This document shows, in pieces, positions 35,916 through 53,023 of a stretch of 64,000 bases of DNA; within the stretch, counting starts at the first letter, position 1; each line of letters starts with the position of its first letter. The notes under the pieces are model-generated. The model saw only the letters and a program-made list of their open reading frames with translations, had not been told where the DNA came from and did not search any database. The position numbers and the translations under genes are program-made. Source of the DNA: Actinokineospora sp. NBRC 105648 (GTDB lineage Bacteria; Actinomycetota; Actinomycetes; Mycobacteriales; Pseudonocardiaceae); NCBI RefSeq assembly GCF_030269645.1, contig NZ_BSTR01000016.1, positions 62,001 through 126,000 of the forward strand, read 5' to 3'.

Positions 35916-37244
35916 CTACGGCACCAGCGCCTGGTAACGGGTCAGGGCCCGGTCCACCAACGCATCCGCCGACCCCAGGTAGCCCGCCGGGTCCAGTAGC
36001 GCCTCTACATCGACCGAGGCCAGTTCCGGTGCGGCGCGCAGGGCGTCGGCGAACGACGGCTCACGGGACAACCTGGCCAGCAGTTTCTTCGCCTCGGCCT
36101 TTCCCAGTACCGGGGCCAGAGCCACGTTCAGGCGCTCCGATACGATCGTGCCGCCGGTCAGCTCCACGTTGGCGCGCAACCGGTCCGGGAACACCTCCAA
36201 GCCCGAGGCCAGCTCGGCCGCCGTGTGCGCGGCGCCGCCGATCAACCTGAGGCACTCGCGCAGGGGTTGCCATTCGGCGTGCCAAGCGCCGGGGGCGCGT
36301 TCGTCCTCGGCGAGCATCGACTGCGCCAACACCGTGGCGTACAACGGAACCTGGCGCGCGGCCGACATGATCAACGTGGCCAGCACGGGGTTGCGCTTCT
36401 GCGGCATCGCCGAGGACACGCCTCGCCCCTCCGCGCTCGGCTCCACCACCTCGGCGACCTCGGTGCGGGACATTCCCTGTACGTCCAAAGCGAACTTCCC
36501 CAACGCGCCGGTCACCAACGACGCGGCCGCGCCGATCTCCAGGAACGGCGTGCGCAGGGCGTGCCACGGCACCGGCGCCTCTGGCAAACCCAGCTCGCGG
36601 GCGAACTCCGCGCTCAACGCCATGCCGTGGTCCACCGCGCCCGCATATTCCACATAGGACGCGAGAGTCCCGGCCGCACCGCCGAGCTGGGCGGGGAGAA
36701 CCACGGAACGCAAGCGCTCCACCGCGTCCAGCACCAGTGAGAGCCAGCCTGCCGCTTTCAACCCGAAGGTCACCGGGACGGCGTGCTGGGTCAGCGTGCG
36801 ACCGGCCATCACCGAGCCGCGGTGCGCGTCGGCCAGGGAGGCGAGTGCGGCGGCCGTGCGGAGCAGGTCGCGGGTGACGACCGCGAACACCCGTTGGGTC
36901 AACAACATCGCCGCCGAGTCCAAGATGTCCTGACTGGTGCCGCCGCGGTGGACGTACTCCGCGGCCTCGCCCGGCACGCACGCCGTGAACGCGGTCACGA
37001 ACGCCACCACCGGGTTCGCCCCGCCACGGGAGCGGACGGCCAGGTCGACCACGTCCAGCGACACCGCTGCCGAGGCGATGGCCTCCGCCGCCGACGCCGG
37101 GATCACGCCCAGCCGGGCCTGCGCCCGCGCCAGCGCGATCTCGACGGTGACCATCGCGGCCACCCACGCCTCGTCGGTCACCAGGTCGGCGGCCTCGGTG
37201 CCCGCCCACACGGGCGCGAGCAGGCCGCTGTCGGTTCCGGTCAC
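35916..37244 (-). CDS. creD-like: Nitrosuccinate lyase (CreD-like, aspartase/fumarase superfamily)
   Basis: 442 residues from GTG 37244, with AGGAG 4 nt upstream. The superfamily signature is GVSSAMPQKRNPVLATL; the second conserved block is GGTSQDILDSAAML. By sequence alone it could be called 3-carboxy-cis,cis-muconate cycloisomerase, but it follows a CreE-like monooxygenase by 9 nt. That pairing is the known aspartate-nitrosuccinate pathway (cremeomycin, fosfazinomycin and others), in which CreE oxidises aspartate to nitrosuccinate and CreD releases nitrous acid and fumarate. Nitrous acid then serves N-N bond or diazo formation. The reaction is inferred from that family knowledge and the gene pair. 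Confidence 0.75.
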   Translation of the reverse strand: MTGTDSGLLAPVWAGTEAADLVTDEAWVAAMVTVEIALARAQARLGVIPASAAEAIASAAVSLDVVDLAVRSRGGANPVVAFVTAFTACVPGEAAEYVHRGGTSQDILDSAAMLLTQRVFAVVTRDLLRTAAALASLADAHRGSVMAGRTLTQHAVPVTFGLKAAGWLSLVLDAVERLRSVVLPAQLGGAAGTLASYVEYAGAVDHGMALSAEFARELGLPEAPVPWHALRTPFLEIGAAASLVTGALGKFALDVQGMSRTEVAEVVEPSAEGRGVSSAMPQKRNPVLATLIMSAARQVPLYATVLAQSMLAEDERAPGAWHAEWQPLRECLRLIGGAAHTAAELASGLEVFPDRLRANVELTGGTIVSERLNVALAPVLGKAEAKKLLARLSREPSFADALRAAPELASVDVEALLDPAGYLGSADALVDRALTRYQALVP

Positions 37245-37253
37245 GGGTCTCCT

Positions 37254-39041
37254 CTAGGCGGGACGGGCAAGCACACCGGCGGTCGCACTGGTTGTCACCG
37301 CCAGCGCCGCCCGGGCGATGGCGTCCGCGTCGGCGAGGATCACCGAGTTGACGCCGGGGCGGATGCCCGCGGCGGTGACCCAGTGCACCGACTCGGTGGG
37401 AACACCGTAGCCGAAGCGCCGCGGGTGGGGCCGACCGTCGGCGTCGACCAGGCGGTACGGCCGTTCGGTCACCGCCATCCCACCGGTCTCGACCGCGCCC
37501 GGCAGCCGGTAGGGCGCGCACTCCCCCGCCGCGCGCAGCCCGGAGATCAGCGGGTCGGTGGTGCGGCGGATGTCCACTTCGGGCAGTCGGGCCTCCACCA
37601 GCGCCCGCACGGTGACCGCCGATCCGGCGACCACGGGCGAGCTGACCACGAAGCCGTCGGTGCCGCGCTCGACCCGCATACCGGGACCGACCACGCGGAC
37701 GACGTCGGCCTCGACGAGGGCGATCAGCTCGGCCACCCGGCGGACGGGCGGGCCGATGGACAGGTACGCGTTGAGCGGGGTGTACCAACCGTCGAGGTCG
37801 GCGCGGTAGGAGGCACCGGTGACGCCGCCGTGGTCCACGGCGAGGCGGATCTCGTTGCGCAGGTCGCGCAGCACGTCGAGTGCGGCTTTCACCGGGTCGC
37901 TGACGTTGCCGCCCAACGCCTGCCGCACGTCTTCCCGCAGCAGGTCGAGGAGCCAGTCGTGGAACGCCGCGGGCGAGTCGAAGGACCGGTCGCCGTGCGG
38001 GCAGGCGATCCGGTCCCAGTCCCAGCGCAGCTCCGGCGGGACGTCGTCGGGACCGCGTCCCAGCGCCGTGTAGTAGACGTGCTCCACCTCGGCGGCGACC
38101 AGCGGCCAGATGTCCCGGCGGAAGGACACCGGCGGCCCGGACCGCAGCCGGGCGATCACCGCCTCGGTCAGGAACAGCGGCTCGTGCCTACCGAAAGCAC
38201 CCTTCTCGTTCTCCCCGCGCGAGTGATAGGGCACCCCGCGCCGGGAACCTGTGATGATCACCGGCTCGCGGCCGGACGCCAGGTAGGCCAGCGACCCGTC
38301 CGAGCGCTCCTTGAACCGCCCGCCCCGGTCGACGGTCAGCAGCGCTAAGTGGTCGAAGAACGCCAGCCCCATCCCCCGCACGGCCACCGGCTCACCCGGG
38401 GCGAGCGCCTCGAGGTCGACCTCGGCGGGGTTGGCGGGCGGCCAGTAGGCGAGGCCCAGCGAGTTCGCGAAGGCCAGGAGTGAGTGGTCGACCGCGCACA
38501 GCGGCATGTCCACGTGTCCCTGCGCCAAGATGACAGCCTCGAGATCGGCCAGCACCGTGTGGTCGGCCAGGGTCACGACCTGGGCGCCGTCGTCGGCCTC
38601 GGTGAGCGAGACGGCCAGCTGCCGGTGCAGCACCACCTCGACGCCCGGGGTGCGGCGGATCCGGTCTAGCACCCAGTCGAGGTAGTGGCCGTAGAAAGCC
38701 CTGGTGGGATAGGAGTTCGGGGTCAGCGCCGACGCCTCGGCGACGATCTCCGCCGGGTACCCGGCGGGCAGCGCGCGGGCCCACTCGTACAGGCTCGGTC
38801 CCGGCACGATCGGGCCGGCGCACACCACGCTGGCGTCGGTGAACATCGACACCTGCGAGGCGATGGTGTTCATCAGCAACGACGCGGGCTGGGCGGTCGA
38901 CCACACCCGGCCGCCGCGCCGGACGAACGGGTCGACCAGGTGGACCACCAGCGGGCCGTCGGCGTTGGCGCACAGCCGTTCGACGACGCTGAGGCCGCGC
39001 GGTCCCGCGCCGACGACGCACACCGCCCGGACCCGGTGCAT
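37254..39041 (-). CDS. creE-like: FAD-dependent aspartate N-oxygenase (CreE-like)
   Basis: 595 residues from ATG 39041, with GGGGGAG upstream. The N-terminal FAD-binding loop is VCVVGAGPRGLSVVERL; a second dinucleotide region lies near AVRGMGLAFFDHLALLTVDR. Length and motifs (STAQPASLLMNTIASQVSMF, NSYPTRAFYGHYLDW) match the CreE type of flavin enzyme that oxidises L-aspartate through several steps to nitrosuccinate. It lies directly upstream of the CreD-like lyase. The two together would supply nitrous acid to the cluster. A GC hairpin at 39077-39107 separates them from the operon upstream. Confidence 0.75.
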   Translation of the reverse strand: MHRVRAVCVVGAGPRGLSVVERLCANADGPLVVHLVDPFVRRGGRVWSTAQPASLLMNTIASQVSMFTDASVVCAGPIVPGPSLYEWARALPAGYPAEIVAEASALTPNSYPTRAFYGHYLDWVLDRIRRTPGVEVVLHRQLAVSLTEADDGAQVVTLADHTVLADLEAVILAQGHVDMPLCAVDHSLLAFANSLGLAYWPPANPAEVDLEALAPGEPVAVRGMGLAFFDHLALLTVDRGGRFKERSDGSLAYLASGREPVIITGSRRGVPYHSRGENEKGAFGRHEPLFLTEAVIARLRSGPPVSFRRDIWPLVAAEVEHVYYTALGRGPDDVPPELRWDWDRIACPHGDRSFDSPAAFHDWLLDLLREDVRQALGGNVSDPVKAALDVLRDLRNEIRLAVDHGGVTGASYRADLDGWYTPLNAYLSIGPPVRRVAELIALVEADVVRVVGPGMRVERGTDGFVVSSPVVAGSAVTVRALVEARLPEVDIRRTTDPLISGLRAAGECAPYRLPGAVETGGMAVTERPYRLVDADGRPHPRRFGYGVPTESVHWVTAAGIRPGVNSVILADADAIARAALAVTTSATAGVLARPA

Positions 39042-39076
39042 TGGTGACTCCCCCCGAAGGCTGGCAGATTGGAGGA

Positions 39077-39107
39077 GTGCGGGGGCGGTTGTGGCCCGCC
39101 CCCGCAC
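39077..39107. terminator. GC hairpin between the condensation-enzyme operon and creE-like
   Basis: GTGCGGGGGCGG (39077-39088) and CCGCCCCCGCAC (39096-39107) form a perfect 12-bp stem with a 7-nt loop, 62 bp after the stop of the leftward condensation gene and 35 bp before the creE-like start. It could terminate or attenuate the upstream operon so that creE-creD are separately controlled. Confidence 0.65.
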
Positions 39108-39168: not shown

Positions 39169-40575
39169 TCATGCGGCACCCCCCTCGACAGATTCCGCCT
39201 GGACTCCGACGGTCGCCGGAAACCTGGACTCGACGGGCACGCCGGTGGGCGCGCCGGGGTCGAGGGCGGCGGACACCGCGACGGACTCGACGGCCCGGAC
39301 GACGGCCTCCGTCTCCGCGGCGCCGAAGTATCGGGTGTCGACGGACATGACCAGCTCGACCGTGTCGGCCGGGTCGTCGACGTTGAGGTAGAGCTTCTGC
39401 CGCGGCAGCCCGGGCCCGTCCTCCCAGCGCAGCGCGGACCGGTCGAGCGCGGCGAACAGCTCCGCCTCGGTCGGCTCGGCCGCCGCGGCGGGGACGCGGT
39501 CGGACTTGCGGCGGTCGTTGAAGAAGCAGGAGAAGTCGACCGGCTCACCGCGCTCGGCCACCACCCGGTCGACCACCTCGTCCTGGGCGTCCGGGTCGTA
39601 GTAGGCGTGCTTGTAGGCGTTCATCGTGCTGCGCGCGGCCCGGGCGACGGCCTCGCCGAGGGTGGTGCCCGCGACGTCGATCAGGTACGGGCTGATCTGC
39701 ACGACCGAGCTCACCGAGTCGGCGAACCCGGGCCGGAAGCGGTTGCTCACCATCAGCATCGCCAGGACCGGGTTGCTCGCCCCGCACCGGGCCAGCGCCA
39801 CCGCGAAGCAGGCCAGCAGCACCGGCGAGGTGCTGGTCCCGGCGCGCCGGGCGACCGCGTCGGTGGCCAGCCGCAGGGCGGGTGAGCGGTAGCGGACCTG
39901 GCGGAACTCGGGGACGCCGTCGCGCTTGGGCGGTCCGAAGCGGCTGGGCGAGGCGGTGCGCAGGACGTGGTCGAGGTAGCGCAGCGAGGCCGCGGACTGG
40001 CGCAGTGCGGCGGGTTGTTGCTGCTGCCTGGCCTGTTCCAGCGGCGGCAGCGCGGTGACCGGGGTCAGCTCGGTGTTGGCCTGGCCGAACTCGGCGACCA
40101 GCACGTCGAGCCCGCCCGCGTCCAGCGAGAGGTGCAGGTAGACCGCGACCATGTGCGTGACTTCGCCGTCGCGGCGCACCACGCCCATCCGAATCGGCCA
40201 CTCGCGTTCGTAGTCGAACGGCACGGACGCGTAGCGTTCCCGCAGGTCAGCGGCCACGACGGCCGGGTCGGCGGCGCCCGCGTCGACGATCTCCAGCGGT
40301 ACCTCGCCCGAGTCGGACAGGCACTGCCGGGGCCGGCCCTCGGTGAACACCAGGCGGGTGCGTAGCGCCTGGTGCCTGCCGACGACCGCGGCCAGCGCGG
40401 TCGCCGCCTGCTCGACGGTGCTGCCGGGCGGGAGCGGGGTGCTCCCACCCACGGTCCGGGACTCGCCGGACCGCGCGAGGGCCTGCCAGATGCCGATCTG
40501 GCCCCACGTCAGGTCGGCCTCGCCGCTGCCCTCCCCCTGGAAGGGGATGAGTAATCGCTCGCTCACCGCGGTCAC
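39169..40575 (-). CDS. Free-standing NRPS condensation enzyme
   Basis: 468 residues from GTG 40575, whose GTGA overlaps the stop of the E1-beta gene. A condensation fold with VVGRHQALRTRL and active-site VYLHLSLDAGG (His148, Asp152). The first His of HHxxxDG is Leu and the Gly is Ala, as in the two relatives in this window, which all share a DLTWGQ-like start. It has no fused adenylation or carrier domain. It should join an acyl or aminoacyl group held on one of the cluster's carrier proteins to an amine. Which pair it uses cannot be read from sequence. Confidence 0.83.
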   Translation of the reverse strand: MTAVSERLLIPFQGEGSGEADLTWGQIGIWQALARSGESRTVGGSTPLPPGSTVEQAATALAAVVGRHQALRTRLVFTEGRPRQCLSDSGEVPLEIVDAGAADPAVVAADLRERYASVPFDYEREWPIRMGVVRRDGEVTHMVAVYLHLSLDAGGLDVLVAEFGQANTELTPVTALPPLEQARQQQQPAALRQSAASLRYLDHVLRTASPSRFGPPKRDGVPEFRQVRYRSPALRLATDAVARRAGTSTSPVLLACFAVALARCGASNPVLAMLMVSNRFRPGFADSVSSVVQISPYLIDVAGTTLGEAVARAARSTMNAYKHAYYDPDAQDEVVDRVVAERGEPVDFSCFFNDRRKSDRVPAAAAEPTEAELFAALDRSALRWEDGPGLPRQKLYLNVDDPADTVELVMSVDTRYFGAAETEAVVRAVESVAVSAALDPGAPTGVPVESRFPATVGVQAESVEGGAA

Positions 40576-41549
40576 CAGCCCGGGCTCTTGAGCACCGCGC
40601 GGACCGCCTCGGCCAGCTGCGCCCGGGTCGGCTGCAGCGCGACGTCGAGCTCGGGGACCGCGCCGACGATCGCGCCGTCGGGCCGGGTGACCCGCTTGGG
40701 CGGCGCGGTCAGGCGCATCTCCTCGGCGGCGGTGGCCAAGATCTCCGCGCCCATGCCGCAGGCGCGGTTGGAGTCGTCGAAGACCACCAGCCGCCCGGTG
40801 CGGGCGACCGACTCGGCCAAGCCCGCCCAGTCGAACGGGTAGACCGAGCGCGGGTCCCACACCTCGACCGAGGCCTCCTCGGCCAGTTCCTCCGCCACGG
40901 CAAGGGCTTCGTGCACCAGATGTCCCAACGCGACTACCGTGACGTCGGTGCCCGGGCGGTGGACCCGGCCGCTGCCGAGCGGGATCGGGCCGAGGTCGGC
41001 GTAGTCGACGTCGGCGCGGACGCCGAGCGCGGCCAGCGGGCCGAGCACGACCACCGGGTCGTCGTCGCGGATGGCCGTGGTGAGCAGGCCGTAGGCGTCG
41101 GCGGGGGTGGCGGGCAGGACGGTCTTGACGCCCATGTGCGCGAACAGGCTGTAGACCTGGTCGGAGTGCTGCGCGCCCCAGCCCGCGCGCCAGCCCGCGG
41201 CCGGGCACAGGTAGGTCACCGGGACGCTGCGCTGACCGCCGCTCATCAGCAGGAACTTGTTGGCCTGGTTGGTGATCTGCTCGAACACCAGCAGCAGCAG
41301 GAACGGGATCTGGAACTCGACCACCGGCCGCCGACCGGCCAGCGCGGCGCCGGTGGCGAAGTTGGTGAAGCCCTGCTCGGTGAGCGGCACCTCGACCACC
41401 CGGTCCGGGCCGAACCGGTCCAGGAACCCGGCGGTGACGTTGGTCAGCGCGTGGTTCATGTCCTCGCCGAGCACGAACACCGACTCGTCCCGGTCCATCT
41501 CGTCGCCGAGGGCGCGGTGCAGCGCCTTCAGGTAGGACAGTCTGGGCAT
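40572..41549 (-). CDS. TPP-dependent 2-oxoacid dehydrogenase E1, beta subunit
   Basis: 325 residues. Transketolase pyrimidine-binding domain (LGEDMNHALTNVTAGFLDRF, EVPLTEQGFTNFATGAALAG) and C-terminal domain (DVTVVALGHLVHEALAVAEE, VWDPRSVYPFDW). The conserved GAQHSDQ active-site His is present. It pairs with the E1-alpha gene 21 nt upstream. No E2 or lipoamide dehydrogenase gene is present, so the pair does not belong to a housekeeping complex. Precedents are PglB/PglC in phenylglycine biosynthesis (pristinamycin) and the ACP-loading TPP enzymes of the quinocarcin type. Confidence 0.87.
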   Translation of the reverse strand: MPRLSYLKALHRALGDEMDRDESVFVLGEDMNHALTNVTAGFLDRFGPDRVVEVPLTEQGFTNFATGAALAGRRPVVEFQIPFLLLLVFEQITNQANKFLLMSGGQRSVPVTYLCPAAGWRAGWGAQHSDQVYSLFAHMGVKTVLPATPADAYGLLTTAIRDDDPVVVLGPLAALGVRADVDYADLGPIPLGSGRVHRPGTDVTVVALGHLVHEALAVAEELAEEASVEVWDPRSVYPFDWAGLAESVARTGRLVVFDDSNRACGMGAEILATAAEEMRLTAPPKRVTRPDGAIVGAVPELDVALQPTRAQLAEAVRAVLKSPGW

Positions 41550-41570
41550 GTGCTCACCCCTTTCCGGTGA

Positions 41571-42563
41571 TCAGAGGGACACTCCCGCGCGGGGGCGGAA
41601 GCCGTCGGCGTACATGAACTCCTGCGCGTCGGCCGGGTCGGGCCGCGGGCTCTCGACCGCGAACCGGACGACCTCGTCGAGCTGCCGCTCGACCTCGTCG
41701 TCGATCCCCTGGCGCACAACGGGATCCACGCGCTCGGCCTGGATGTCGAGTGGGTCCCGCCGCTTCCAGGCGTCGACCTCGGCCCGCTCGCGGTAGCTGA
41801 GCCGGGCCTTGAGCTCGAAGGTGTGGTGGCCGTGGTAGCGGTAGGTGCGCATCTCCAGCAGCGAGGGACCGCCGCCGGACCGCGCACGATCAACGGCCTG
41901 CTGTACCGCAGCGTACACGGTTTCCGCGTCTTGTCCATCCACTGTGGAGGAGGGGATCCCGAACGCCGCGCCGCGCCCGGTGATCGTGCCCGCGACGGCC
42001 GTCTCCACCGGAAGGGTTGTGGCGTAGAGGTTGTTCTCGCAGATGTAGACGACCGGCAGCTTCCAGAGCCCGGCCAGGTTGAAGCCCTCCAGCAGCGCGC
42101 CCTGGGTCACCGCGCCGTCGCCGAAGAAGCTCAGCACGACCTTCGGCTCACCCGCTCTGACCGCCGCCCAGGCGATCCCGGCCGCGATGCCCGCACCGTG
42201 CCCGACCGTGCCGGTGGCGTTGTAGACCCCCGCGGTGAAGTCCGACGGGTGGAACGAGCCGCCCCGGCCACCGTCGATCCCGGTGGCGCGCCCGGCCATC
42301 TCGGCCAGGACCCGGCCCGGGTCGCAGCCCTTGGCCAGCAGGTGGCCGTGACCCCGGTGGCTGGAAAGGACTATGTCGTCGGGTTCCAGGGTGGCGCAGG
42401 CCCCGACCGCCACCGCCTCCTGCCCGATGCACGGGTGGATGCCGCTGACGATCTCGCCAGACTGGACCAGCTCGATCGACCGCTCCTCGAACCGCCTGAT
42501 GAACCGGATCCTCCGGTACAGCTCGACACCGTCCGGGCCGGCTGAACCATCCACTGTGGACAT
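41571..42563 (-). CDS. TPP-dependent 2-oxoacid dehydrogenase E1, alpha subunit
   Basis: 330 residues from ATG 42563, with GGGGAG upstream. TPP/Mg motif FFGDGAVTQGALLEG ... ICENNLYA, and the HRGHGHLLAKG loop. It forms the usual alpha2beta2 enzyme with the next gene. Substrate candidates in this cluster are 4-hydroxyphenylglyoxylate from Hmo (giving a hydroxybenzoyl thioester) or a simple 2-oxoacid/ketose phosphate (giving an acyl-ACP). The alpha subunit lacks the long N-terminal extension of housekeeping enzymes. Confidence 0.87.
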   Translation of the reverse strand: MSTVDGSAGPDGVELYRRIRFIRRFEERSIELVQSGEIVSGIHPCIGQEAVAVGACATLEPDDIVLSSHRGHGHLLAKGCDPGRVLAEMAGRATGIDGGRGGSFHPSDFTAGVYNATGTVGHGAGIAAGIAWAAVRAGEPKVVLSFFGDGAVTQGALLEGFNLAGLWKLPVVYICENNLYATTLPVETAVAGTITGRGAAFGIPSSTVDGQDAETVYAAVQQAVDRARSGGGPSLLEMRTYRYHGHHTFELKARLSYRERAEVDAWKRRDPLDIQAERVDPVVRQGIDDEVERQLDEVVRFAVESPRPDPADAQEFMYADGFRPRAGVSL

Positions 42564-42568
42564 ACCGC

Positions 42569-43462
42569 TCACTCCCCGAACGCCGCGAGCACGGAGTCCG
42601 GCCAGCGGGTGGAGTCCGCGCCGTGCCGGTTGATCAGCGCCAGCGCCAGTCGCTCCAGGCCGAACGCGACGCACGAGGTGTGCGCGGTCTCGCCGCCCGC
42701 GGTGATCTCGAAGGTCTCGCCGAAGTGCTCCTTGTGGTAGTTCGCCGAGGCCACCGCCTGCACCTGGCCGTCGGCGACCGGCACCTTGAGCTCCCACTTG
42801 AGCTCCTGCATCCGTTGCGCCGCCTGGAAGAGCTTGCGCCCCGGGCCGAAGAACGGGTCGTCGGCCACCTCGACCGACACCTCCAGACCCAGCTCGGTGA
42901 ACCAGCCCTCGACCTGCTCCAGCCGGGCGGCGCGCCACTTCAGGCAGTGCTCGTCGGTGGCGACGGTGACCAGCTCCAGCATCCGGAACGAGCGCAGCCG
43001 TCCGGGCTCGGCGGTCGCCTCCTGCCGGAAGCAGGTGCCCTCCACGGTCACCTTCGCCGGGTCGGTCAGGCTCCGGCCGGCCAGCGTGGCGTAGACCGGG
43101 TAGCAGGCGGCGGGCAGCAGGACCAGGTCGCCGATCGCTTGCTGGGCATGCCATTCGCCACCCTCGGCGACCAGCGGCTTGAGCCGGGCCCAGCCCGACG
43201 GGGTGCCCGCGTACCCGTGCACGGTGCCCAGCAGGTTGGGGAACGCCTCCACGTAACCGGCCCGCTCGATGGTCGCCCGGGAGATGACCGGCGGGATCAC
43301 CAGCCGGTCGAACGGCTCGTCGGCGGCCAGCGCCGCGACCCCCGAGCGCAGCAGGGCGACGACCCGCTCGAAACCGGCCGGGGACAGGTAGACCCCGGGC
43401 ACACCCGTGGCCACCGGCAACCCGTCGCCGCCGGGGAACGCCCCGGCCACCGTCTCTACCAT
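42569..43462 (-). CDS. Class II aminoacyl-tRNA-synthetase-like amino acid:[carrier protein] ligase
   Basis: 297 residues from ATG 43462, overlapping the PPTase stop by 7 nt. It is far shorter than a seryl-tRNA synthetase and lacks its tRNA-binding arm. Motif 2 (CFRQEATAEPGRLRSFRM, about 145-161) and motif 3 (AFGLERLALAL, about 266-276) form the ATP site. Cys120, Glu163 and Cys264 are spaced like the zinc ligands of the SerRS-like Gly/Ala:carrier protein ligases. Those enzymes activate a small amino acid and attach it to a carrier protein's phosphopantetheine. Here it would replace an adenylation domain and feed a condensation enzyme. Confidence 0.85.
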   Translation of the reverse strand: MVETVAGAFPGGDGLPVATGVPGVYLSPAGFERVVALLRSGVAALAADEPFDRLVIPPVISRATIERAGYVEAFPNLLGTVHGYAGTPSGWARLKPLVAEGGEWHAQQAIGDLVLLPAACYPVYATLAGRSLTDPAKVTVEGTCFRQEATAEPGRLRSFRMLELVTVATDEHCLKWRAARLEQVEGWFTELGLEVSVEVADDPFFGPGRKLFQAAQRMQELKWELKVPVADGQVQAVASANYHKEHFGETFEITAGGETAHTSCVAFGLERLALALINRHGADSTRWPDSVLAAFGE

Positions 43463-44112
43463 GGCGCCACCTCTTCCAGTCCACACCAGCGGTGCTCGCG
43501 CACCTCGAAGTCCTCGGTCCCGGCCAACGCCACCGCGGCCAGGTAGCCGCGCGGCGCCGGGATGTCACGCACCCGGTAAGGCCCATCTGCTTGCCACACA
43601 ACGGTTCTGTCGTGCACGGGCAGGCGCAGGCCGGGGAACAGCCGCCCACCCGCCGCCTTCACACACGCTTCCTTGCGCGCCAACAAACCGGTGAAGCGCG
43701 CGGGCGACCCCCCGACGTGCCGGGCCTCGTCGGCGGGGTAGAACCGGGTGGCCGCGCGCGGGATGTCCAGCCCGTCGTCCACCCACTGCAGATCGACACC
43801 GACCGCACGGCGGTCCGCGCAGGCCACCATGGCTAGCCCGAACGAACGGGTCAGGCTCATCCGCAGGCCATCGACCTCAGGCTTGCCGTGCCGCCCGATC
43901 GTCCAGCGCACCCGGGCGGGCTCGATCCCCAGGGCCCGCCCGACGATGGCGCGGGCGGCACCGTGCGCGGCGATGTACTCGCGGCGCTGCCGCGCGCCCA
44001 TCTCCGCCGCCTTGGCGCGCTCGCCAGGGTCGAGGGTGGCGGCGAGCCGGTCGAGCTCCGGCGCGGGGAGCGCGGAGTCGACCAGCCAGACGCGCACGGT
44101 GTCGGGGCTCAT
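43456..44112 (-). CDS. Sfp-type 4'-phosphopantetheinyl transferase
   Basis: 218 residues. Signature motifs AVGVDLQWVDDGLDI (Mg-binding Asp) and FTGLLARKEACVKAAGG are intact; the substrate-side motif HGKPEVDGLRMSLTRS fits Sfp/Gsp enzymes. It would convert the cluster's four apo carrier proteins to holo form using CoA. Its start overlaps the upstream stop by 4 nt (ATGA), and its own stop overlaps the aaRS-like start, tying expression to the carrier-protein ligase. Confidence 0.93.
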   Translation of the reverse strand: MSPDTVRVWLVDSALPAPELDRLAATLDPGERAKAAEMGARQRREYIAAHGAARAIVGRALGIEPARVRWTIGRHGKPEVDGLRMSLTRSFGLAMVACADRRAVGVDLQWVDDGLDIPRAATRFYPADEARHVGGSPARFTGLLARKEACVKAAGGRLFPGLRLPVHDRTVVWQADGPYRVRDIPAPRGYLAAVALAGTEDFEVREHRWCGLEEVAPW

Positions 44113-45014
44113 CCGGCCACCAGCGAACGGTCGGCCCCATGGTTCACGGTGTCGGCCGCACTGTCCACTATGTCCTTCTGATAGTCCACCGCGTCCTTTT
44201 CATAGTCCACAGTGGAGAAGCAGAGGTAGCCGAGCGCGGGTTCGTAGTCCGCCACCAGGACGACGCCGTCCCGCGGCAGCTGGGCCAGCTCCCACCACAC
44301 TCCGGTGTACGGCTGCCCGGGAGCGGCCACGACGTCGGCGACGCCGGGCGCCGCCTCGGCCAGTCTGCTCGAGGCGATCACCGTTCCGCCCGCGGCGCGG
44401 GCGGCCTCGGCGAACAACCCGGGCACCCGCTTGGCGTCCACGCCCGTGTGCTGCCGGACCGCCACCGGGCCGCCGGTCGCGGACTCGAACTTGAGCGCTA
44501 CGGCGGTGTGCCGGTCGGGCACCGGCGCCGGTTCGGTCAACTCGTAGTGCAGCGCGGACTGCTCCACCACGAAGACCAGCGCCCGCCCGCGGGACCCCGA
44601 GCCGAGGTAGGACTGGGTGAGCCGGAGCGCGGTGAACGCCGCCGCGCTCCCCTGGTCGCACACCGCGAACGCCACCGGCGTGCCTGGGCACAGGTCGCTC
44701 AGGTAGGCCGCGGTCGACCGTGCCAACCGCAGGTCGTGCATGGCGAAGACCAGCACCAGCAGGTCGACCGGCTCGTCCGGCGCGGTGATCGAGGGCAGCA
44801 GCGCCTCGGCCATCTCGCCGAACGAGTGACCGGCGCCCGTGGTGAGCAGGTCCTCGCGCAAGGCGTTGCCGTACTGGCGGACGAGGTCGACCAGGAACGG
44901 CCGCAGCGCCGGGTCCAGCGCGGTGGCGGAGGTCTCGTCGAACACCCGGGCCACCGCGGCGCGCAGGCGCGCGGGTGGGCCGGGGTCGGTGCCGGGTGGG
45001 CCCGCGACGAACAT
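44109..45014 (-). CDS. Divergent thiolase-fold (KAS III-like) protein
   Basis: 301 residues from ATG 45014, overlapping the ACP stop (TGATG). A thiolase-like centre is visible: VDLLVLVFAMHDLRLARSTA, then AFAVCDQGSAAAFTALRLTQ with a Cys in the active-site position (about residue 145), and LVFVVEQSA. The expected His and Asn motifs of KAS III are not recognisable, so it may be a partner or acyltransferase rather than a condensing enzyme. The C-terminus carries an internal repeat (VDYEKDAVDYQKDIVDS) absent from the fold. The family cannot be named with certainty. Confidence 0.55.
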   Translation of the reverse strand: MFVAGPPGTDPGPPARLRAAVARVFDETSATALDPALRPFLVDLVRQYGNALREDLLTTGAGHSFGEMAEALLPSITAPDEPVDLLVLVFAMHDLRLARSTAAYLSDLCPGTPVAFAVCDQGSAAAFTALRLTQSYLGSGSRGRALVFVVEQSALHYELTEPAPVPDRHTAVALKFESATGGPVAVRQHTGVDAKRVPGLFAEAARAAGGTVIASSRLAEAAPGVADVVAAPGQPYTGVWWELAQLPRDGVVLVADYEPALGYLCFSTVDYEKDAVDYQKDIVDSAADTVNHGADRSLVAG

Positions 45015-45331
45015 CACTCGTCCGCGACGGTGTGCGCGGCGATGTAGGCCGCCAGGGTGCCGACCGTCTCCAGGTCGCCCTGGTCGATCTCCTCCACGTC
45101 GATCTGGATCTCCAGCTCGTCCTCGAGCTCGAGCAGCAGCTCCAGCGTGCTCGCCGAGCTGAGGCCCAGCCCGGTGAACAGCCTGGTGTCGCGGGTCAGC
45201 TCGGGCACCTCCCGCTTGAGCACCCTGGGCAGCAGCTCGCCCATGCTCGCCACCACCCGCTCGCGCAGCTCGGCGGTCGAGTCGTCCTCCACGGCCACAG
45301 CCACCGCGACGGCGCCCTCATCGACAGTCAT
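45014..45331 (-). CDS. Acyl/peptidyl carrier protein
   Basis: 105 residues with GGGAGG upstream. A four-helix carrier fold with LGLSSASTLELLLELEDELE; Ser59 is in the phosphopantetheine position, the usual preceding Asp being Ser and following Leu being Ala. An acidic N-terminal extension of about 20 residues (VAVAVAVEDDS) precedes the fold. It lies between the KAS III gene and the KAS III-like gene, so it may carry the chain these enzymes extend or transfer. Confidence 0.85.
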   Translation of the reverse strand: MTVDEGAVAVAVAVEDDSTAELRERVVASMGELLPRVLKREVPELTRDTRLFTGLGLSSASTLELLLELEDELEIQIDVEEIDQGDLETVGTLAAYIAAHTVADE

Positions 45332-45358: not shown

Positions 45359-46291
45359 CTAGTGCTCGAAGACCATCGCGGAGAACGTCGCGCCGAGTCC
45401 GGCGGCGCCCACCAGGTAGCGCTCCCCCGGCCGCAGCCGCCCCTGGTCGTGGGCGGTGCGGTAGTTGAGGAACGGGTCGGCGGCGAAGCTGTGCCCGGTG
45501 ACGGCGACGTTGTCGAGCACCACCCGCTCCAGCGGGAACCCGATCTGCTTGCACACCCGCCGCCAGGACACGGAGTTCACGTTGTGCGGCAACAGGACCG
45601 CGATGTCGTCGAGGGCCAGCCCGGCGCGCTCGACGGCGGCCAGCAGCACCTCGGCGAGCAGCCCGTGGTACTCGTTCTGGAACCGCGCCGCCAGCGTCGG
45701 GTCGATGCTCAGCCTGCCGTCGAAGTCGCCGCGGGTGGTCGTGGTGTAGGCGAGCAGCCGGTCGCGCGGGCCCGCGGCGGACACCAGCACGGCGGCCGAG
45801 CCCTCGCCGAAGATCGCCGTCTCCTGGACCAGCCGGGCGTCCGGGGTGAAGGTCTTCTCCCCGGACACCACCAGGGCCAACGCCTCCGGGTCGGCCTCGC
45901 CCGCGAGCAGCCTGCCCGCGACGTCGACCGCGAGCAGCCCGGTGGCGCACGCCTGGTGGGTCACGGTGAACGCCATGGCGTGGTCGAGGCCGAACTTCGC
46001 GCACATCTCGTGCAGCGGGTTGTTCGGGTAGGGCACGGCCGCGGGCATACCCCGCGCGTACACCACGTACCGCACCCGGCTCTCGTTGCCGCGCAACGAC
46101 TCCAGGCCGTCGGTCGCGGCGACGAGCAGGTCCAGGAGGGTGCCGTCGAGGTCGAGGCAGACCTCCGAGAGACCGTGGAAGCGGCGGAACAGCCGGATCT
46201 GCCGCTCGGTGAGGTCCAGCCGGTCGGCCAGGTCCTCGAGGGCCAGCCGGTCCGGCGGCAGGTGGGCCGCGACCTCGACGATCGCGGTCAC
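45359..46291 (-). CDS. KAS III-family condensing enzyme or acyltransferase with Cys-His-His site
   Basis: 310 residues from GTG 46291, overlapping the condensation gene's stop (GTGA). Cys115 lies in HQACATGLLA, His236 in LLPHNVNSV, and GHSFAADPF puts His267 where FabH has Asn. FabH uses Cys-His-Asn, so the change suggests acyl transfer or an unusual nucleophile rather than standard malonyl condensation. KAS III homologues that acylate amines or alcohols are known in other pathways. A malonyl-ACP route would also need an acyltransferase, which the cluster lacks. Confidence 0.8.
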   Translation of the reverse strand: MTAIVEVAAHLPPDRLALEDLADRLDLTERQIRLFRRFHGLSEVCLDLDGTLLDLLVAATDGLESLRGNESRVRYVVYARGMPAAVPYPNNPLHEMCAKFGLDHAMAFTVTHQACATGLLAVDVAGRLLAGEADPEALALVVSGEKTFTPDARLVQETAIFGEGSAAVLVSAAGPRDRLLAYTTTTRGDFDGRLSIDPTLAARFQNEYHGLLAEVLLAAVERAGLALDDIAVLLPHNVNSVSWRRVCKQIGFPLERVVLDNVAVTGHSFAADPFLNYRTAHDQGRLRPGERYLVGAAGLGATFSAMVFEH

Positions 46292-47646
46292 GACGGCACC
46301 CCGCTGCCCGCCGCAGGGTCGAGCGCGGCGGCGACCAGCAGGGACTCGGTCTCGGTGAGCACGTCGAGCAGCCGCGCCGGGGCGGTCCGGTGCGTGTCGC
46401 CCTGCAGGCCGAACCGCAGCGCGCCCGGCGCCTCGTCGATGTCGAGGTAGAGCAGCGCCTGGTCGTCGTTGGTCCACTTGGTCCACTCGTGCGTGGTGTC
46501 CGCGCGGGCGGCCAGGATCTCCTCGGCGGTGGGCAGCTCGGTGAAGCGCTCCTGCCGCCCGGGCGGGCGGCGGTCGTTGAAGTAGGTGTCCATCTCGACC
46601 CGGCCGCCGAGGTCCGCGCTGACCGCGTCGATCATCGCGGCGCGCTGCTCCGGGTCGTAGTAGGCGTACTTGTAGGTGACCATGGTCGCCTGGCGGGCCC
46701 GGCCGACGGCCTCGTCGAAGCTCGCGCCCGCGAGGTCGACCATCAGCGGGCAGGTCTGGGCCATCGTGCACACCGAGCCCATGACCGACTGGCGGAACCG
46801 GTTGTTGACGGCCATCTGCAGGGCCACCGGGTTGTTGCCGATGGTGCGGGCCAGCGCCCCGGCGAAGGCCGCGAGCAGCACCGGCGAGGTGTCGGTGCCC
46901 AGCCGGGTGGCGATCACCTTCATCGCCAGGTAGGCCGCGCGGGAGATCAGCGACACCTCGCCCCAGCGCGGGTCGCGCACGTCGTCGGACTCGCCCTCGA
47001 TGCGCAGCGGCGAGACCGTGCGCAGGACCCGCTCCCAGTAGCGCAGGGCGGCGGCGCTGTTGCGCAGCGCGCCCGGCGACCGCTGCTGCTCGGCCTGCGC
47101 CAACGGCTGCACGGCGTCCAGCGGCACGGTCGGCCCGCCGGTCTCCGGGTCCATTGTGGACAGGTCGGCGATCAGCGCCTCGAGCCCGTGGGCGTCGATC
47201 GAGAGGTGGTTGTAGACGGCCACCGAGTGCGTCGCGGCGCCGTCGACGACCACGACCGCCATCCGCACCGGCCACTCGTGCTCGTGGTCGAAGTCGAGCT
47301 CCTCGTACTCCCGCTTGACCCGCGCGGCCACCTCGGCCGGGTCGGCGCCCGCGGCGTCGACCACCGCGAGCGCGATCTGGCCGGAGTCGAAGACCTGTTG
47401 GCGGGGACCGCCGTCGGCGGCGTCGAAGCGCAGCCGGGTGCGCAGCGACTGGTGCCTGCCCATCACGTACCGCAGCACCCTGGCCGAGTGCTCGACGCCG
47501 GTGCCCGGGGCCAGCTCGACGATCCCGCCCATGGTCTCCGAGCGACCGGTCTTGGCGACCACGCGCCAGACCGTGCGCTGCCCCCAGGTGAGCTCGTCGA
47601 CCCCGGAACCGGGTCCGTGGAAATCGACGAGGATCTTGTCCGCCAT
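46288..47646 (-). CDS. Free-standing NRPS condensation enzyme
   Basis: 452 residues from ATG 47646, with GGGGAG upstream. Opens VDFHGPGSGVDELTWGQRTV; VMGRHQSLRTRL and active-site VYNHLSIDAHG (His147, Asp151). It is a close relative of the enzyme at 39169-40575. As the first gene of the nine-gene leftward operon that ends with that second condensation gene, it suggests two successive amide- or ester-forming steps. No adenylation or carrier domain is fused. Confidence 0.83.
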   Translation of the reverse strand: MADKILVDFHGPGSGVDELTWGQRTVWRVVAKTGRSETMGGIVELAPGTGVEHSARVLRYVMGRHQSLRTRLRFDAADGGPRQQVFDSGQIALAVVDAAGADPAEVAARVKREYEELDFDHEHEWPVRMAVVVVDGAATHSVAVYNHLSIDAHGLEALIADLSTMDPETGGPTVPLDAVQPLAQAEQQRSPGALRNSAAALRYWERVLRTVSPLRIEGESDDVRDPRWGEVSLISRAAYLAMKVIATRLGTDTSPVLLAAFAGALARTIGNNPVALQMAVNNRFRQSVMGSVCTMAQTCPLMVDLAGASFDEAVGRARQATMVTYKYAYYDPEQRAAMIDAVSADLGGRVEMDTYFNDRRPPGRQERFTELPTAEEILAARADTTHEWTKWTNDDQALLYLDIDEAPGALRFGLQGDTHRTAPARLLDVLTETESLLVAAALDPAAGSGVPS

Positions 47647-47683
47647 GCTCTTTTGCTCCCCGCCGCATATGTGCTCTGGACGC

Positions 47684-47712
47684 ATTCTTGGCAGCGGTCA
47701 GCACACTGTCAA
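47684..47712 (-). promoter_or_regulatory. Promoter of the leftward nine-gene operon
   Basis: Reading leftward, TTGACA (47712-47707) and AAGAAT (47689-47684) are separated by exactly 17 nt, 38 nt before the start codon at 47646. It lies in the 167-bp divergent gap with the carrier-protein gene at 47814, for which TTGACG at 47721-47726 is a possible opposite -35. Confidence 0.6.
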
Positions 47713-47813: not shown

Positions 47814-48080
47814 GTGGCGCTATTCGAAGAAGTCGCGGGAATACTCCGAGAGGTGGTCGGGCCCTGCGGCGGACGACCCCCGGCAATTACGCCGAACGCC
47901 ACGCTGGAGGGCGACCTGCGATTCGACAGCGTCGACCTGGCGGCCGTGCAGGCCGGGCTCGCGCGCCGCTTCGGCGACCGGGTGGACCTGCCCGCGCACG
48001 TGTCCGCCCTGGGGCTCGAGGAGATCATCGGGCTCACCGCGGCGGACGTGGCGCACTACGTCGAGGACCGGCTCCGGTGA
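47814..48080 (+). CDS. Carrier protein
   Basis: 88 residues from GTG 47814, with GGAGG 8 nt upstream. The carrier motif is LRFDSVDLAAVQAGL with Ser39, in the LPAHVSALGLEEIIGLTAAD context. It is the first gene of the rightward operon carrying the glycosyltransferase and exporter, the next start overlapping by GTGA. It may hold the intermediate that is glycosylated or loaded before export. It is distinct from the three carrier proteins on the other strand. Confidence 0.83.
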   Translation: MALFEEVAGILREVVGPCGGRPPAITPNATLEGDLRFDSVDLAAVQAGLARRFGDRVDLPAHVSALGLEEIIGLTAADVAHYVEDRLR

Positions 48081-49270
48081 GCCGGTTCCTGTTCGTCGTC
48101 CCGCCGCTGGCCGGGCACCTCAACCCCAGCCTCGGCGTCGGCCAGGCGCTGGCCCGGGCGGGCCACGAGGTCGCCTGGTGCGGCCCGGAGCTGCACGTGC
48201 GGCCGCTGCTCGGCCCGGACGCGCTGGTCTTCCCGACCGGCAGCAGGCTGCACCGGCCGCAGTCCGACCACGGGCTGGCCGCGGTCAAGTCGGTGTGGGA
48301 CCGGTTCATCGTGCCGTTCGCCCGGTTCAGCCTGCCCGCGGTCGAGAAGGCCGCCGCCGACTACCGGCCGGACGTGCTCGTGGTCGACCAGCACTCACCC
48401 GCGGGGGCGATAGCCGCGCACCGCCTTGGCCTGACCTGGGCGACCCTGGCCTGCTCGACAATGGACCTGGGCGACCCGCTGGCGGGCCTGCCGCGGGTGC
48501 GCGAGTGGGTCGAGGGCCGGGTGCGACACCTGTGGGACAAGGCGGGACTGCCCGCCGAGGAGTACTTCGACCTGCGGTTCTCCCCGCACCTGGTGATCGC
48601 CTCCACCGGCCGAGCGCTCGCCGGGTCGGACTTCCCCGAGCACTACGCCCTGGTCGGCCCGGTGCTGGCCGAGCGCCCGGCGCAGCCGGACTTCCCCTGG
48701 GACTGGCTGGACCCGGACCGCGAGCACGTGCTGGTCTCGATGGGCACCCTCGCCGACGACGTCTCCAGCCGGTTCCTGCACGAGACCGTGGCCGCGCTCG
48801 CCCCGCTGGGCGAGCGGCTGCAAGGGGTGTTCGTGGCCCCGCCCGACGCCCTGCCCGACCTGCCACCGCACCTGCTGGCCCGGGCCAGGGTGCCGATGCT
48901 CGACCTGCTGCCCCGGATGGACCTGGTCGTCTCGCACGGCGGCCTCAACACCGTCTGCGAGTCGCTGGCCAACGGGGTCCCGCTGGTCGTGGCCCCCATC
49001 CGGCACGACCAGCCGATCAACGCCAACCAGGTGGTCGCCGCGGGCGCGGGGGTGCGGGTCGGGTTCGCCCGGGCCGACGCCGACGCGCTGCGCGCGGCCG
49101 TCACCACCGTTCTCGGCGACCCGGCCCACCGGGCCGCCGCCCACCGCGTCCGCGCGTCGTTCGCCGAGGCGGGCGGCGCCGACGCCGCCGCGGCGGCCCT
49201 CACGCGGTTGAGCGCCCAGAGCACTGCACAGTCGCCGGTACCAGCCGGCCGAGGCGGGAGCACGTCATGA
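48077..49270 (+). CDS. MGT-family (GT1) glycosyltransferase
   Basis: 397 residues. N-terminal acceptor side (FLFVVPPLAGHLNPSLGVGQ) and C-terminal nucleotide-sugar signature (SHGGLNTVCESLANGVPLV, then PIRHDQPINANQVV). MGT/GT1 enzymes transfer a sugar from UDP- or dTDP-sugars to macrolides, phenols and similar acceptors; some inactivate antibiotics for self-protection. No deoxysugar genes are in the window, so a common sugar nucleotide is likely. Overlaps the carrier-protein gene upstream and the ABC gene downstream (ATGA). Confidence 0.92.
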   Translation: MSRFLFVVPPLAGHLNPSLGVGQALARAGHEVAWCGPELHVRPLLGPDALVFPTGSRLHRPQSDHGLAAVKSVWDRFIVPFARFSLPAVEKAAADYRPDVLVVDQHSPAGAIAAHRLGLTWATLACSTMDLGDPLAGLPRVREWVEGRVRHLWDKAGLPAEEYFDLRFSPHLVIASTGRALAGSDFPEHYALVGPVLAERPAQPDFPWDWLDPDREHVLVSMGTLADDVSSRFLHETVAALAPLGERLQGVFVAPPDALPDLPPHLLARARVPMLDLLPRMDLVVSHGGLNTVCESLANGVPLVVAPIRHDQPINANQVVAAGAGVRVGFARADADALRAAVTTVLGDPAHRAAAHRVRASFAEAGGADAAAAALTRLSAQSTAQSPVPAGRGGSTS

Positions 49271-50220
49271 TCGAGGTCAAGGGCCTGCGGAAGTCGTTCA
49301 CCGTGGGCAAACGGCGCAAGGCCCGCAGCGTGGAGGCCGTGCGCGGCGTCGACCTGTCGGTGGCCGAGGGGGAGATCTTCGGCTTCCTCGGCCCCAACGG
49401 CGCGGGCAAGACCACCACCGCGCGCATCCTGTGCACGCTGGTCGAACCGGACGGCGGCGACGCCGTCATCGCGGGTGCCGACCTGCGCGAGGACCCCGGG
49501 ACGGTGCGCCAGCGGGTCGGCTACGTCCCGCAGGGCGGCACCACCACCGACGAGGTCACCGCCCGCGAGGAGCTGGTGCTGCAGGCGCGGATGTACGGGA
49601 TCGGCAAGGCCGAGGCGATCGAGCGCAGCGAGAAGGCGCTCGCCTCGTTCGAGCTGACCGAGTTCGCGGACCGGCAGTGCCGGACCTACTCCGGCGGCCA
49701 GCGCCGCCGGGTCGACATCGCGATGGGCATCATCCACGAGCCCAAGGTGCTCTTCCTCGACGAGCCCACCACCGGCCTGGACCCGCAGTCCCGCGCGCAC
49801 CTGTGGGACGAGGTGCGCAGGCTGCGCGACGCGGGCATGACCGTCTTCCTCACCACGCACTACCTGGAGGAGGCCGACGCGCTGTGCGACCGGATCGCGA
49901 TCATCGACCACGGTGAGATCGTCGCCCTGGGCACCCCGACCGAGCTCAAGCACGGCGTCGCGGGCGACGTGGTCACCGTCGGGCTCAACGGCGCCGCCCC
50001 ACGCGCCGCCGAGCTGCTCGAGGGCAGCTCCTACGTGCGCAAGCTGGAGGTCGGCGAGGGCGGCCTGCGGCTCTACGTCGAGGACGGCACCACCGCGATG
50101 CCGCAGATCATGCGCGCGCTCGACGGCCACGACATCGCCTTCGACACCGTCGAGCTGCACCGGCCCAGCCTCGACGACGTGTTCCTGATCAAGACCGGCC
50201 GCTCGCTGCGCGACAAGTAG
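49267..50220 (+). CDS. ABC transporter ATP-binding protein, DrrA type
   Basis: 317 residues from ATG 49267. Walker A GPNGAGKTTTAR, Q-loop YVPQGG, signature YSGGQRRRVDIAMG, Walker B VLFLDEPTTGLD and H-loop TTHYLEEAD, with the C-terminal DrrA-type extension. It would energise export of the cluster product together with the permease 11 nt downstream, giving self-resistance. DrrA proteins export daunorubicin and many other drugs. Confidence 0.94.
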   Translation: MIEVKGLRKSFTVGKRRKARSVEAVRGVDLSVAEGEIFGFLGPNGAGKTTTARILCTLVEPDGGDAVIAGADLREDPGTVRQRVGYVPQGGTTTDEVTAREELVLQARMYGIGKAEAIERSEKALASFELTEFADRQCRTYSGGQRRRVDIAMGIIHEPKVLFLDEPTTGLDPQSRAHLWDEVRRLRDAGMTVFLTTHYLEEADALCDRIAIIDHGEIVALGTPTELKHGVAGDVVTVGLNGAAPRAAELLEGSSYVRKLEVGEGGLRLYVEDGTTAMPQIMRALDGHDIAFDTVELHRPSLDDVFLIKTGRSLRDK

Positions 50221-50231
50221 GAGAACCCCTC

Positions 50232-50996
50232 ATGAAGTTCCTCCGGGACACCTGGCTCGTCTACCAGCGGCAGATGCTGCTGGTCGGGCGCACACCGGCA
50301 CGGCTGGTGATCGGGTTCCTCCAGCCGATCGCCTACCTGCTGCTGTTCGCGCCGCTGCTCAAGAACGCCCTGTCCAGCACCGGCGCCACCAGCTACGCCG
50401 ACGCCTACCGGGTCTACGTGCCCGGCCTGCTGGTGGTGCTCGTGCTGCTCAGCGGCTTCTTCGCCGGGTTCGGCCTGCTCGCCGAGCTGCGCTCGGGCGT
50501 CATCGAGCGCTCCCGGGTCACCCCGGCCAGCCGGGTCGCACTGATCCTGGGCCGGGCGCTGTCCGAGGTCACGACGCTGATGGGGCAGGCGGTGGTGATC
50601 ACCGTGGTGGCCATCCCGTTCGGCCTGACGGTGGACCTGGGCTGGCTGCTGGTGGCGTACGTGATGCTGGCCCTGATGGCGCTCATGGCCTGCGGGTTCT
50701 CCTACGCGATCGCCATGCTGATCCCCAGCCCGGCGGCGCTCGGCCCGCTGATCAACACCATCTCCCAGCCGCTGTCGCTGCTGTCCGGGGTGCTGCTGCC
50801 GCTGACCCTGGCACCCGCCTGGCTGGTCGGCATCGCGGAGTGGAACCCGATCTACTGGACCACCAACGGCACCCGCGCGCTGTTCACCGGCAACCCGGGC
50901 GACCCGGCGGTCTGGCAGGGCATGGTCGTCATCATCGTGCTGGCCGCGATAACCGTCACCTGGGCGACGAAGATGTTCGCCAAGCAGGTGCGCTGA
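50232..50996 (+). CDS. ABC-2 type permease, DrrB type
   Basis: 254 residues, ATG 50232. Six hydrophobic segments typical of ABC-2 permeases, with RVYVPGLLVVLVLLSGFFAG, LISQPLSLLSG-like loop (LINTISQPLSLLSGVLLPLT) and PIYWTTNGTRALF near the end. It forms the membrane half of the exporter with the ATPase upstream. The operon ends at a strong bidirectional hairpin. Confidence 0.92.
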   Translation: MKFLRDTWLVYQRQMLLVGRTPARLVIGFLQPIAYLLLFAPLLKNALSSTGATSYADAYRVYVPGLLVVLVLLSGFFAGFGLLAELRSGVIERSRVTPASRVALILGRALSEVTTLMGQAVVITVVAIPFGLTVDLGWLLVAYVMLALMALMACGFSYAIAMLIPSPAALGPLINTISQPLSLLSGVLLPLTLAPAWLVGIAEWNPIYWTTNGTRALFTGNPGDPAVWQGMVVIIVLAAITVTWATKMFAKQVR

Positions 50997-52992: not shown

Positions 52993-53023
52993 GGTCAACC
53001 TCTGGGGTGCCGGGGGCTTGAGT

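Follow-up and report, generated by a model that had tools for sequence, protein, structure and literature searches.

A seryl-tRNA synthetase-like member of the amino acid:[carrier protein] ligase family in a conserved biosynthetic gene cluster of Actinokineospora

Bll0957 of Bradyrhizobium is a glycine:[carrier protein] ligase of known structure (PDB entries 3mey, 3mf1, 4h2s and 4h2w). The zinc site of this ligase family requires an alpha-amino group. Other relatives of aminoacyl-tRNA synthetases act in natural-product pathways. The accessible parts of two accounts (PMC2922099, PMC11705231) describe VlmL of valanimycin biosynthesis as a seryl-tRNA synthetase (SerRS) paralogue that works with VlmA via seryl-tRNA, and MetRS-like hydrazine synthetases as enzymes that form N-N bonds. 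Among open-licence papers, we found none on a carrier protein ligase of the Bll0957 kind in a conserved biosynthetic cluster without its usual dehydrogenase. The locus described here places a known ligase family in new surroundings.

The DNA analyzed, referred to as the window, is a stretch of 64,000 nucleotides from Actinokineospora sp. NBRC 105648 (NZ_BSTR01000016.1, positions 62,001 to 126,000). Its minus strand carries a run of 11 genes, given here in the direction of transcription, with intergenic gaps of -7 to +61 bp.

46288 to 47685, minus strand: C2, free-standing condensation-like protein, motif NHLSIDA (Pfam Condensation)
45359 to 46288, minus strand: FabH-like KAS III protein (PF08541, 61 bits)
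45014 to 45331, minus strand: ACP1, candidate carrier partner (PF00550, 39.7 bits)
44109 to 45017, minus strand: KSx, predicted KAS III-fold protein (no Pfam match at 0.01; model, best Foldseek match AbyA1/FabH, TM about 0.55)
43456 to 44112, minus strand: PPTase, ACPS family (PF01648, 27.6 bits; cut-off, 25)
42569 to 43462, minus strand: aaCPL, amino acid:[carrier protein] ligase-like protein, SerRS-like class II core, 297 amino acids (profile, structure, alignment)
41571 to 42563, minus strand: dehydrogenase E1 alpha (PF00676, 226 bits)
40572 to 41549, minus strand: dehydrogenase E1 beta (Pfam)
39169 to 40575, minus strand: C1, free-standing condensation-like protein, motif LHLSLDA (Pfam Condensation)
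37254 to 39107, minus strand: CreE-like L-aspartate N-hydroxylase (match to 8cp2, 590.8 bits)
35916 to 37244, minus strand: CreD-like nitrosuccinate lyase (NF052556, 566.3 bits, below the cut-off of 650)

The ligase open reading frame, with an ATG at 43462 and an alternative GTG start at 43486, lies on the minus strand at the coordinates given in the original prediction and encodes 297 amino acids. That prediction had assigned the protein to a SerRS-like carrier protein ligase family, and profile, sequence and structure comparisons all agree. The profile for amino acid--[ACP] ligases, NF005479, matches at 3.5e-85; since the score of 285.7 bits falls short of the curated equivalog cut-off of 357, we file the protein as a related branch and not as that equivalog. 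The closest solved sequences are two Bll0957 chains (2e-57 and 9.5e-57; 39% identity), followed by the type-2 SerRS 3w3s (2.2e-15). An AlphaFold model built from 29 related sequences (pLDDT, 90.0; pTM, 0.88) likewise retrieved the Bll0957 entries first (TM, 0.89; Z, 34.5 over 286 residues) and archaeal SerRS next (Z, 25.9). The model superposes on residues 190 to 493 of Methanosarcina barkeri SerRS, which is the catalytic part alone; hence the N-terminal tRNA-binding part is missing, as had also been predicted. A housekeeping SerRS is ruled out, as the protein has no tRNA-binding domain and scores 58.1 bits against serS_MJ (cut-off, 489.55), and two serS genes above the TIGR00414 cut-off lie elsewhere in the genome. 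These two genes (contigs C12 and C24 of genome G000) score nearly equally, at 435.6 and 435.3 bits, and one of them could be a resistance copy. In a tree of 44 rows, the nine window-type ligases form one clade (92/95) within a 15-row branch (99/88) that is separate from Bll0957.

The predicted catalytic residues are almost invariant. Among 35 aligned sequences, Cys120 and Cys264 are found in all 35 and Glu163 in 34, with one Asp, and these residues align with the Bll0957 stretches PAACYPVY, AHTGCVAFG and FRMRE, respectively. Arg146 and Glu148 of motif 2 and Arg271 of motif 3 are present in 35/35, as are R155, K222, E224, S239, N241 and H243. The claims that motifs 2 and 3 and a Cys120/Glu163/Cys264 zinc triad are retained thus hold, and the loss of zinc ligands on alignment, named beforehand as refuting, was not seen. 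At positions 120, 161, 163, 239, 241, 243 and 264, which we take to be the zinc site and pocket by class II analogy, sequence comparison finds the same residues in the window ligase and in Bll0957. Columns typical of the window type, defined as residues in at least 8 of 9 window-type proteins and in no more than 2 of 23 others, with three of the 35 rows excluded, number 54, a count made after the fact; six fall in residues 207 to 220, six in the motif 2 loop (147 to 157), and the remainder elsewhere. The two Bll0957 chains, one of them engineered, differ from each other at positions matching 208 to 218 of the window protein. Judged from sequence, the typical columns would fit an altered carrier surface around an unaltered pocket. 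Taken together, the alignment and the model indicate a zinc-dependent member of the amino acid:[carrier protein] ligase family, for which ligase activity is predicted.

The 7-bp overlap between the PPTase and ligase genes and the placing of two condensation enzymes in the same operon had been noted beforehand, and both are found. The condensation-like proteins score 66.1 and 49.5 bits against Pfam Condensation (cut-off, 30.6) but do not have the canonical HHxxxDG motif: they read xHxxxDA, keeping the second His and the Asp and losing the first His and the Gly. One condensation-like copy in the related cluster of G008 has Q in place of the catalytic His. KSx is read cautiously because its model has a pLDDT of only 69.9, and we place it no further than the KAS III fold. 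No E2 or E3 gene was recognized close to the E1 alpha/beta pair (40572 to 42563); of the 8 related clusters that have E1 beta, 7 show it as their best-conserved protein (70 to 94% identity), G014 being the exception. The CreE-like protein is named after 8cp2, which we take to be the L-aspartate N-hydroxylase of PMC10404684.

Upstream of the operon, a divergent block encodes ACP2, a glycosyltransferase and an ABC transporter, and past it the cluster extends to 63.2 kb.

47820 to 48080, plus strand: ACP2, candidate carrier partner, seen only in ligase-bearing clusters (17.8 bits, Pfam)
48077 to 49270, plus strand: glycosyltransferase, macrolide GT family (profile)
49267 to 50220, plus strand: ABC transporter ATPase (by-eye label from the open reading frame)
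50232 to 50996, plus strand: ABC transporter permease (by-eye label from the open reading frame)
51065 to 51979, minus strand: PhyH-type 2-oxoglutarate dioxygenase (82.1 bits)
51973 to 52998, minus strand: HmaS, hydroxymandelate synthase-like (best chain 2r5v, PCZA361.1, 3.6e-94; 4HPPD, 314 bits)
53024 to 54292, minus strand: KSa, FabF-type ketosynthase (profile)
54289 to 55896, minus strand: AMP ligase related to the diazotase AvaA6 (NF058622, 473.9 bits; cut-off, 975)
55893 to 56456, minus strand: KSc, small KS-like partner, AmcG-like (34.6 bits; cut-off, 80)
56453 to 57529, minus strand: KSb, AmcF/FabF-like KS (profile)
57522 to 57788, minus strand: ACP3 (16.8 bits, below the cut-off)
57788 to 58072, minus strand: ACP4 (22.0 bits)
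58069 to 59499, minus strand: AMPL, AMP ligase, proposed loader of the hydroxyphenylglycine-pathway product (profile)
59826 to 60896, plus strand: Hmo-like FMN-dependent hydroxyacid oxidase, start codon unsettled (PF01070, 433.7 bits)
60923 to 62245, minus strand: HpgT-like PLP aminotransferase (profile)
62242 to 63189, minus strand: alpha/beta hydrolase (by-eye label from the open reading frame)

Four carrier protein genes are present, as originally predicted, but only ACP1 and ACP4 exceed the Pfam cut-off of 20.8, which ACP2 and ACP3 miss. HmaS, Hmo and HpgT together are the set of enzyme types for the 4-hydroxyphenylglycine pathway, and by these sequence assignments the cluster seems to make that amino acid. 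The distinction between HmaS and 4-hydroxyphenylpyruvate dioxygenase depends on 2r5v, presumably a hydroxymandelate synthase, which ranks above every such dioxygenase among the matches listed. No NRPS adenylation domain was found in the cluster, its two AMP-ligase proteins scoring 93.8 and 118 bits against TIGR01733 (cut-off, 317). The hydroxyphenylglycine, KAS III, E1, diazotase-related and nitrite genes had all been omitted from the original prediction. In the 12 kb read outside the window, no additional cluster gene was recognized. Elsewhere in the window, 27565 to 30465 and 31390 to 34239 encode a tandem pair of similar large proteins with a P-loop-like GHPGAGKS, by eye NACHT-like NTPases.

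Matches to the ligase at 1e-40 were found in 12 of 390 genomes in a family-wide search and in 17 of 394 at the class level, and matches at 1e-10 in 51 of 397 at the order level. Within Actinokineospora, 9 of 16 genomes have it at 73% identity or more and the other 7 have none at that threshold; the closest named loci also belong to this genus. Window-type neighborhoods were read at five named Actinokineospora loci (L004 to L008) and in genomes G334, G188, G754 and G014 of this genus, of which G188 and G754 probably correspond to L007 and L005. Outside the genus they were read in two further families, represented by G058 and by G008, where the contig end cuts the view. The operon order recurs across them. 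The cluster was thus found again in one other family and partially in a third, with the ligase retained at 65 to 88% identity across the three. A biosynthetic setting, as had been claimed, is supported and is conserved across genera; to call the biosynthetic role clear was too strong, as substrate, partner and product are matters of inference. Overall, the original prediction is correct in its main lines and overconfident in its specifics.

Related clusters with and without the ligase were compared after a search with KSx as the query, which found 36 of 397 genomes. The six window-type clusters with at least 40 kb in view (the window, G334, G188, G754, G014 and G058) all have aaCPL, ACP2, C2, KSb and KSc. 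Two sister clusters, G286 and G373 (60 kb each), are without ACP2, C2, KSb, KSc and the window-type ligase and keep C1, KSx, ACP1, FabH, the glycosyltransferase, the AvaA6-like ligase, KSa, ACP3, ACP4, AMPL, HmaS, Hmo, HpgT, PhyH, E1 alpha, E1 beta and the hydrolase. The G286 genome gave no ligase match at an E value of 0.001; G373 has a homologue of 36 to 40% identity that lies next to an ACP gene, roughly 35 kb away from KSx. This distant homologue lies, with its own ACP, in L162 (1 to 6198), and a gene that by eye is ribosomal protein L11-like follows about 4 kb on. A third form, G367 (60 kb), keeps KSa, ACP4, ACP1, C1, PPTase, FabH, KSx, the glycosyltransferase and the AvaA6-like ligase, is without ACP2, C2, KSb, KSc and the hydroxyphenylglycine and E1 genes, and has no ligase match in its genome. 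HMM searches for ACP2 and KSc in the G286, G373 and G367 clusters gave best scores of 13.4 bits, on the ACP3 counterpart, and 10.1 bits. Loci L146 to L151 and L164, from one genus, show an additional cluster type in which FabH and KSx are combined with a glycosyltransferase and an AvaA6-like ligase; no hydroxyphenylglycine or E1 gene was found in 60 kb of G367 or 20 kb of the others.

In these clusters, aaCPL, ACP2, C2, KSb and KSc travel as a set, and the hydroxyphenylglycine genes track AMPL, ACP3 and E1. The presence/absence contrast may reflect a single gain or loss, since the nine window-type ligases form one clade. Co-occurrence as a set makes ACP2 and C2 the first-choice partners of the ligase and disfavors hydroxyphenylglycine as its substrate; as the ligase-free sister clusters retain the hydroxyphenylglycine genes, the charge is likely a small amino acid. 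It had been proposed that the ligase acts in place of an adenylation domain. The cluster indeed has no NRPS adenylation domain, but a replacement of one by the ligase is not supported: the AMP-binding proteins that G286 and G373 have in addition resemble acyl-CoA ligases, and the one in G286 does not look like an amino acid adenylation domain.

We favor, at a probability of roughly 60%, the reading that the ligase has been recruited to this biosynthetic cluster and loads a small amino acid onto a cluster carrier for the condensation-like enzymes. Family membership, catalytic residues, operon, conservation and co-occurrence are established by computation; for the substrate, the carrier partner, the order of steps and the product, we infer the following scheme. 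The ligase would convert ATP and a small amino acid, most likely glycine and next alanine, into an aminoacyl-AMP, with the amino group held by the Cys120/Glu163/Cys264 zinc. The PPTase of the overlapping gene would make the carrier holo, and the same ligase would then move the aminoacyl group to the phosphopantetheine thiol. ACP2, whose presence and absence follow those of the ligase, is the leading candidate for the partner; ACP1, encoded in the same operon and the closest of the four to carriers beside other ligases, is the second. The condensation-like enzymes, C2 first, would condense the loaded amino acid with an acyl chain borne by a second carrier, and this chain is probably the hydroxyphenylglycine-pathway product loaded by AMPL. 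The two hints as to the partner disagree, co-occurrence pointing to ACP2 and the carrier HMM to ACP1. With an HMM of carriers beside other ligases, ACP1 scored 23.7 bits, ACP4 20.4 and ACP2 -1.4, and ACP1 of the ligase-free G367 scored 21.1; a choice of partner by this HMM was set aside because the last of these and ACP4 score nearly as high as ACP1.

A possible alternative, of distinctly lower probability, is that the KAS III-like pair of FabH and KSx, and not the condensation enzymes, uses aminoacyl-ACP1 to form a C-C bond, for example by malonyl extension of glycyl-ACP1. In the window operon, the genes for FabH, ACP1 and KSx neighbor that of the ligase, and in G181 and G923, too, the cluster with the ligase includes FabH, an ACP and KSx. 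Furthermore, 9 of the 36 genomes with KSx have a ligase homologue no more than 20 kb from it, and the two co-occur in 17 of the 36 against 4.6 expected, in counts that ignore relatedness. However, in the other 27 genomes the order-level search at 1e-10 placed no ligase homologue so close to KSx, and FabH, KSx and ACP1 persist in the ligase-free clusters G286 and G367.

That the ligase loads 4-hydroxyphenylglycine, supplied by HmaS, Hmo and HpgT, is unlikely. In its favor, the cluster seems to make this compound, no NRPS adenylation domain was found there, and the zinc site of the family requires an alpha-amino group. Against this, G286 keeps HmaS, Hmo, HpgT, AMPL and ACP3 in a genome with no ligase match, which means that hydroxyphenylglycine does not need the ligase, and on this ground it was set aside as the substrate. 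In addition, AMPL and ACP3 accompany the pathway genes in both cluster types and adjoin them, and the pocket positions compared match those of the glycine ligase Bll0957.

The window-type neighborhoods were also set against those of other ligases. Among 26 rows compared, 4 were window type and 22 were others, of which two represent the same place, leaving 21. An acyl-CoA dehydrogenase like that beside the G024 ligase is found in 13 of these 21, in 11 cases together with an ACP-like gene; an ACP-like gene is present without it in four more (L049, L050, L052 and L102). Some of these other ligases, too, have biosynthetic surroundings. The G024 ligase, with its dehydrogenase, adjoins a type I PKS module and a reductase, the G570 ligase is accompanied by an NRPS module, and the G433 ligase adjoins a two-module NRPS. 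In G181 and G923, the ligase is directly downstream of a free-standing condensation protein, in clusters that also have genes for proteins we take to be SbnA/SbnB-like, a carbamoyltransferase, an ATP-grasp protein, a decarboxylase, FabH, an ACP and KSx; these loci (L112 to L115) carry diaminopropionate-type genes, and in G181 the decarboxylase is fused to an ACP. This pairing of ligase and condensation protein in other clusters counts in favor of the main reading. In G012 and G1054, on the same tree branch, no NRPS or PKS gene was recognized within 20 kb. A ligase gene that is only a passenger, serving another cellular need as may be true of relatives found with an ACP and the dehydrogenase, would draw on the 13 and 11 neighborhoods just given but is very improbable here, given the tight operon, the overlap with the PPTase gene, the retention of the ligase with the cluster at 65 to 88% identity in three families and the absence of that dehydrogenase from all eight window-type clusters tested.

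Alongside loading of a small amino acid, a part for the nitrite genes was considered. Of the 9 ligase-bearing Actinokineospora genomes, 8 have a close CreD (at least 81% identity) in the vicinity of the ligase; the exception is G014, where the hit is generic. The G058 cluster, which stops at a contig end, has no CreE/CreD pair in the 47 kb in view, and in G008 the pair is on a different contig from the ligase. Of five loci of the third cluster type with the AvaA6-like ligase near KSx, three have a generic CreD hit (G367, G056 and G126), one has none (G091) and one has a 47% identical protein (G015); G047 has a generic hit, G228 a 57% homologue, and G286 and G373 have homologues of 55% and 42% far from the cluster. 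As CreD is generic in G014 and generic or absent in four of the AvaA6-like-ligase loci, nitrite supply looks accessory. The CreE/CreD pair is best regarded as having joined the cluster later. Nitrite or diazo chemistry as the core function was rejected on the same distribution, including the distant CreD of G286 and G373. The azaserine and 4-diazo-3-oxobutanoic acid pathways, as the accessible text on them has it, both proceed via hydrazinoacetate chemistry, and a likeness to them was set aside, with no hydrazinoacetate genes noticed among the annotated cluster genes. A speculative and doubtful extension would make this SerRS-like ligase branch the amino acid loader of an undescribed class of free-standing clusters, marked by hydroxyphenylglycine genes, the KAS III pair, E1 and the glycosyltransferase, in which, in Actinokineospora, nitrite from CreE/CreD would act by way of the AvaA6-like ligase on the carrier-bound amino acid or an extended amino ketone to give a diazo or N-nitroso product.

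If the favored reading, in which the ligase loads a small amino acid for the condensation-like enzymes, is true, a compact loader of unrelated fold does the job of an NRPS adenylation domain, which would be useful for engineering. The cluster offers defined carriers, condensation enzymes and a likely product, and with these the role of the ligase family can be tested by assay and deletion.

In comparison with known systems, the window ligase shares with Bll0957 the fold, motifs 2 and 3 and the zinc triad, both are without the tRNA-binding part, and the pocket residues compared are identical. It differs in being only 39% identical and on a separate tree branch, in having window-type residues in the motif 2 loop and in the segment that corresponds to the engineered region of 4h2w, and in its biosynthetic surroundings, which do not include the acyl-CoA dehydrogenase found close to 13 of the 21 other actinobacterial ligase loci. 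The job predicted for it, amino acid activation and carrier loading for condensation enzymes, is that of NRPS adenylation domains, but those have the ANL fold, to which this class II aminoacyl-tRNA synthetase relative is unrelated. As far as the accessible parts of the accounts describe them, VlmL/VlmA and the MetRS-like hydrazine synthetases resemble the window ligase as aminoacyl-tRNA synthetase relatives recruited to natural-product pathways, and neither VlmL nor the MetRS-like enzymes belong to the carrier-loading SerRS-like family. Finally, like the ava, cma and cre nitrite/diazotase clusters, in the available part of PMC11705231, the window brings together CreE/CreD homologues and an AvaA6-related ligase; its AvaA6-like ligase, however, scores half the curated cut-off (473.9 against 975 bits).
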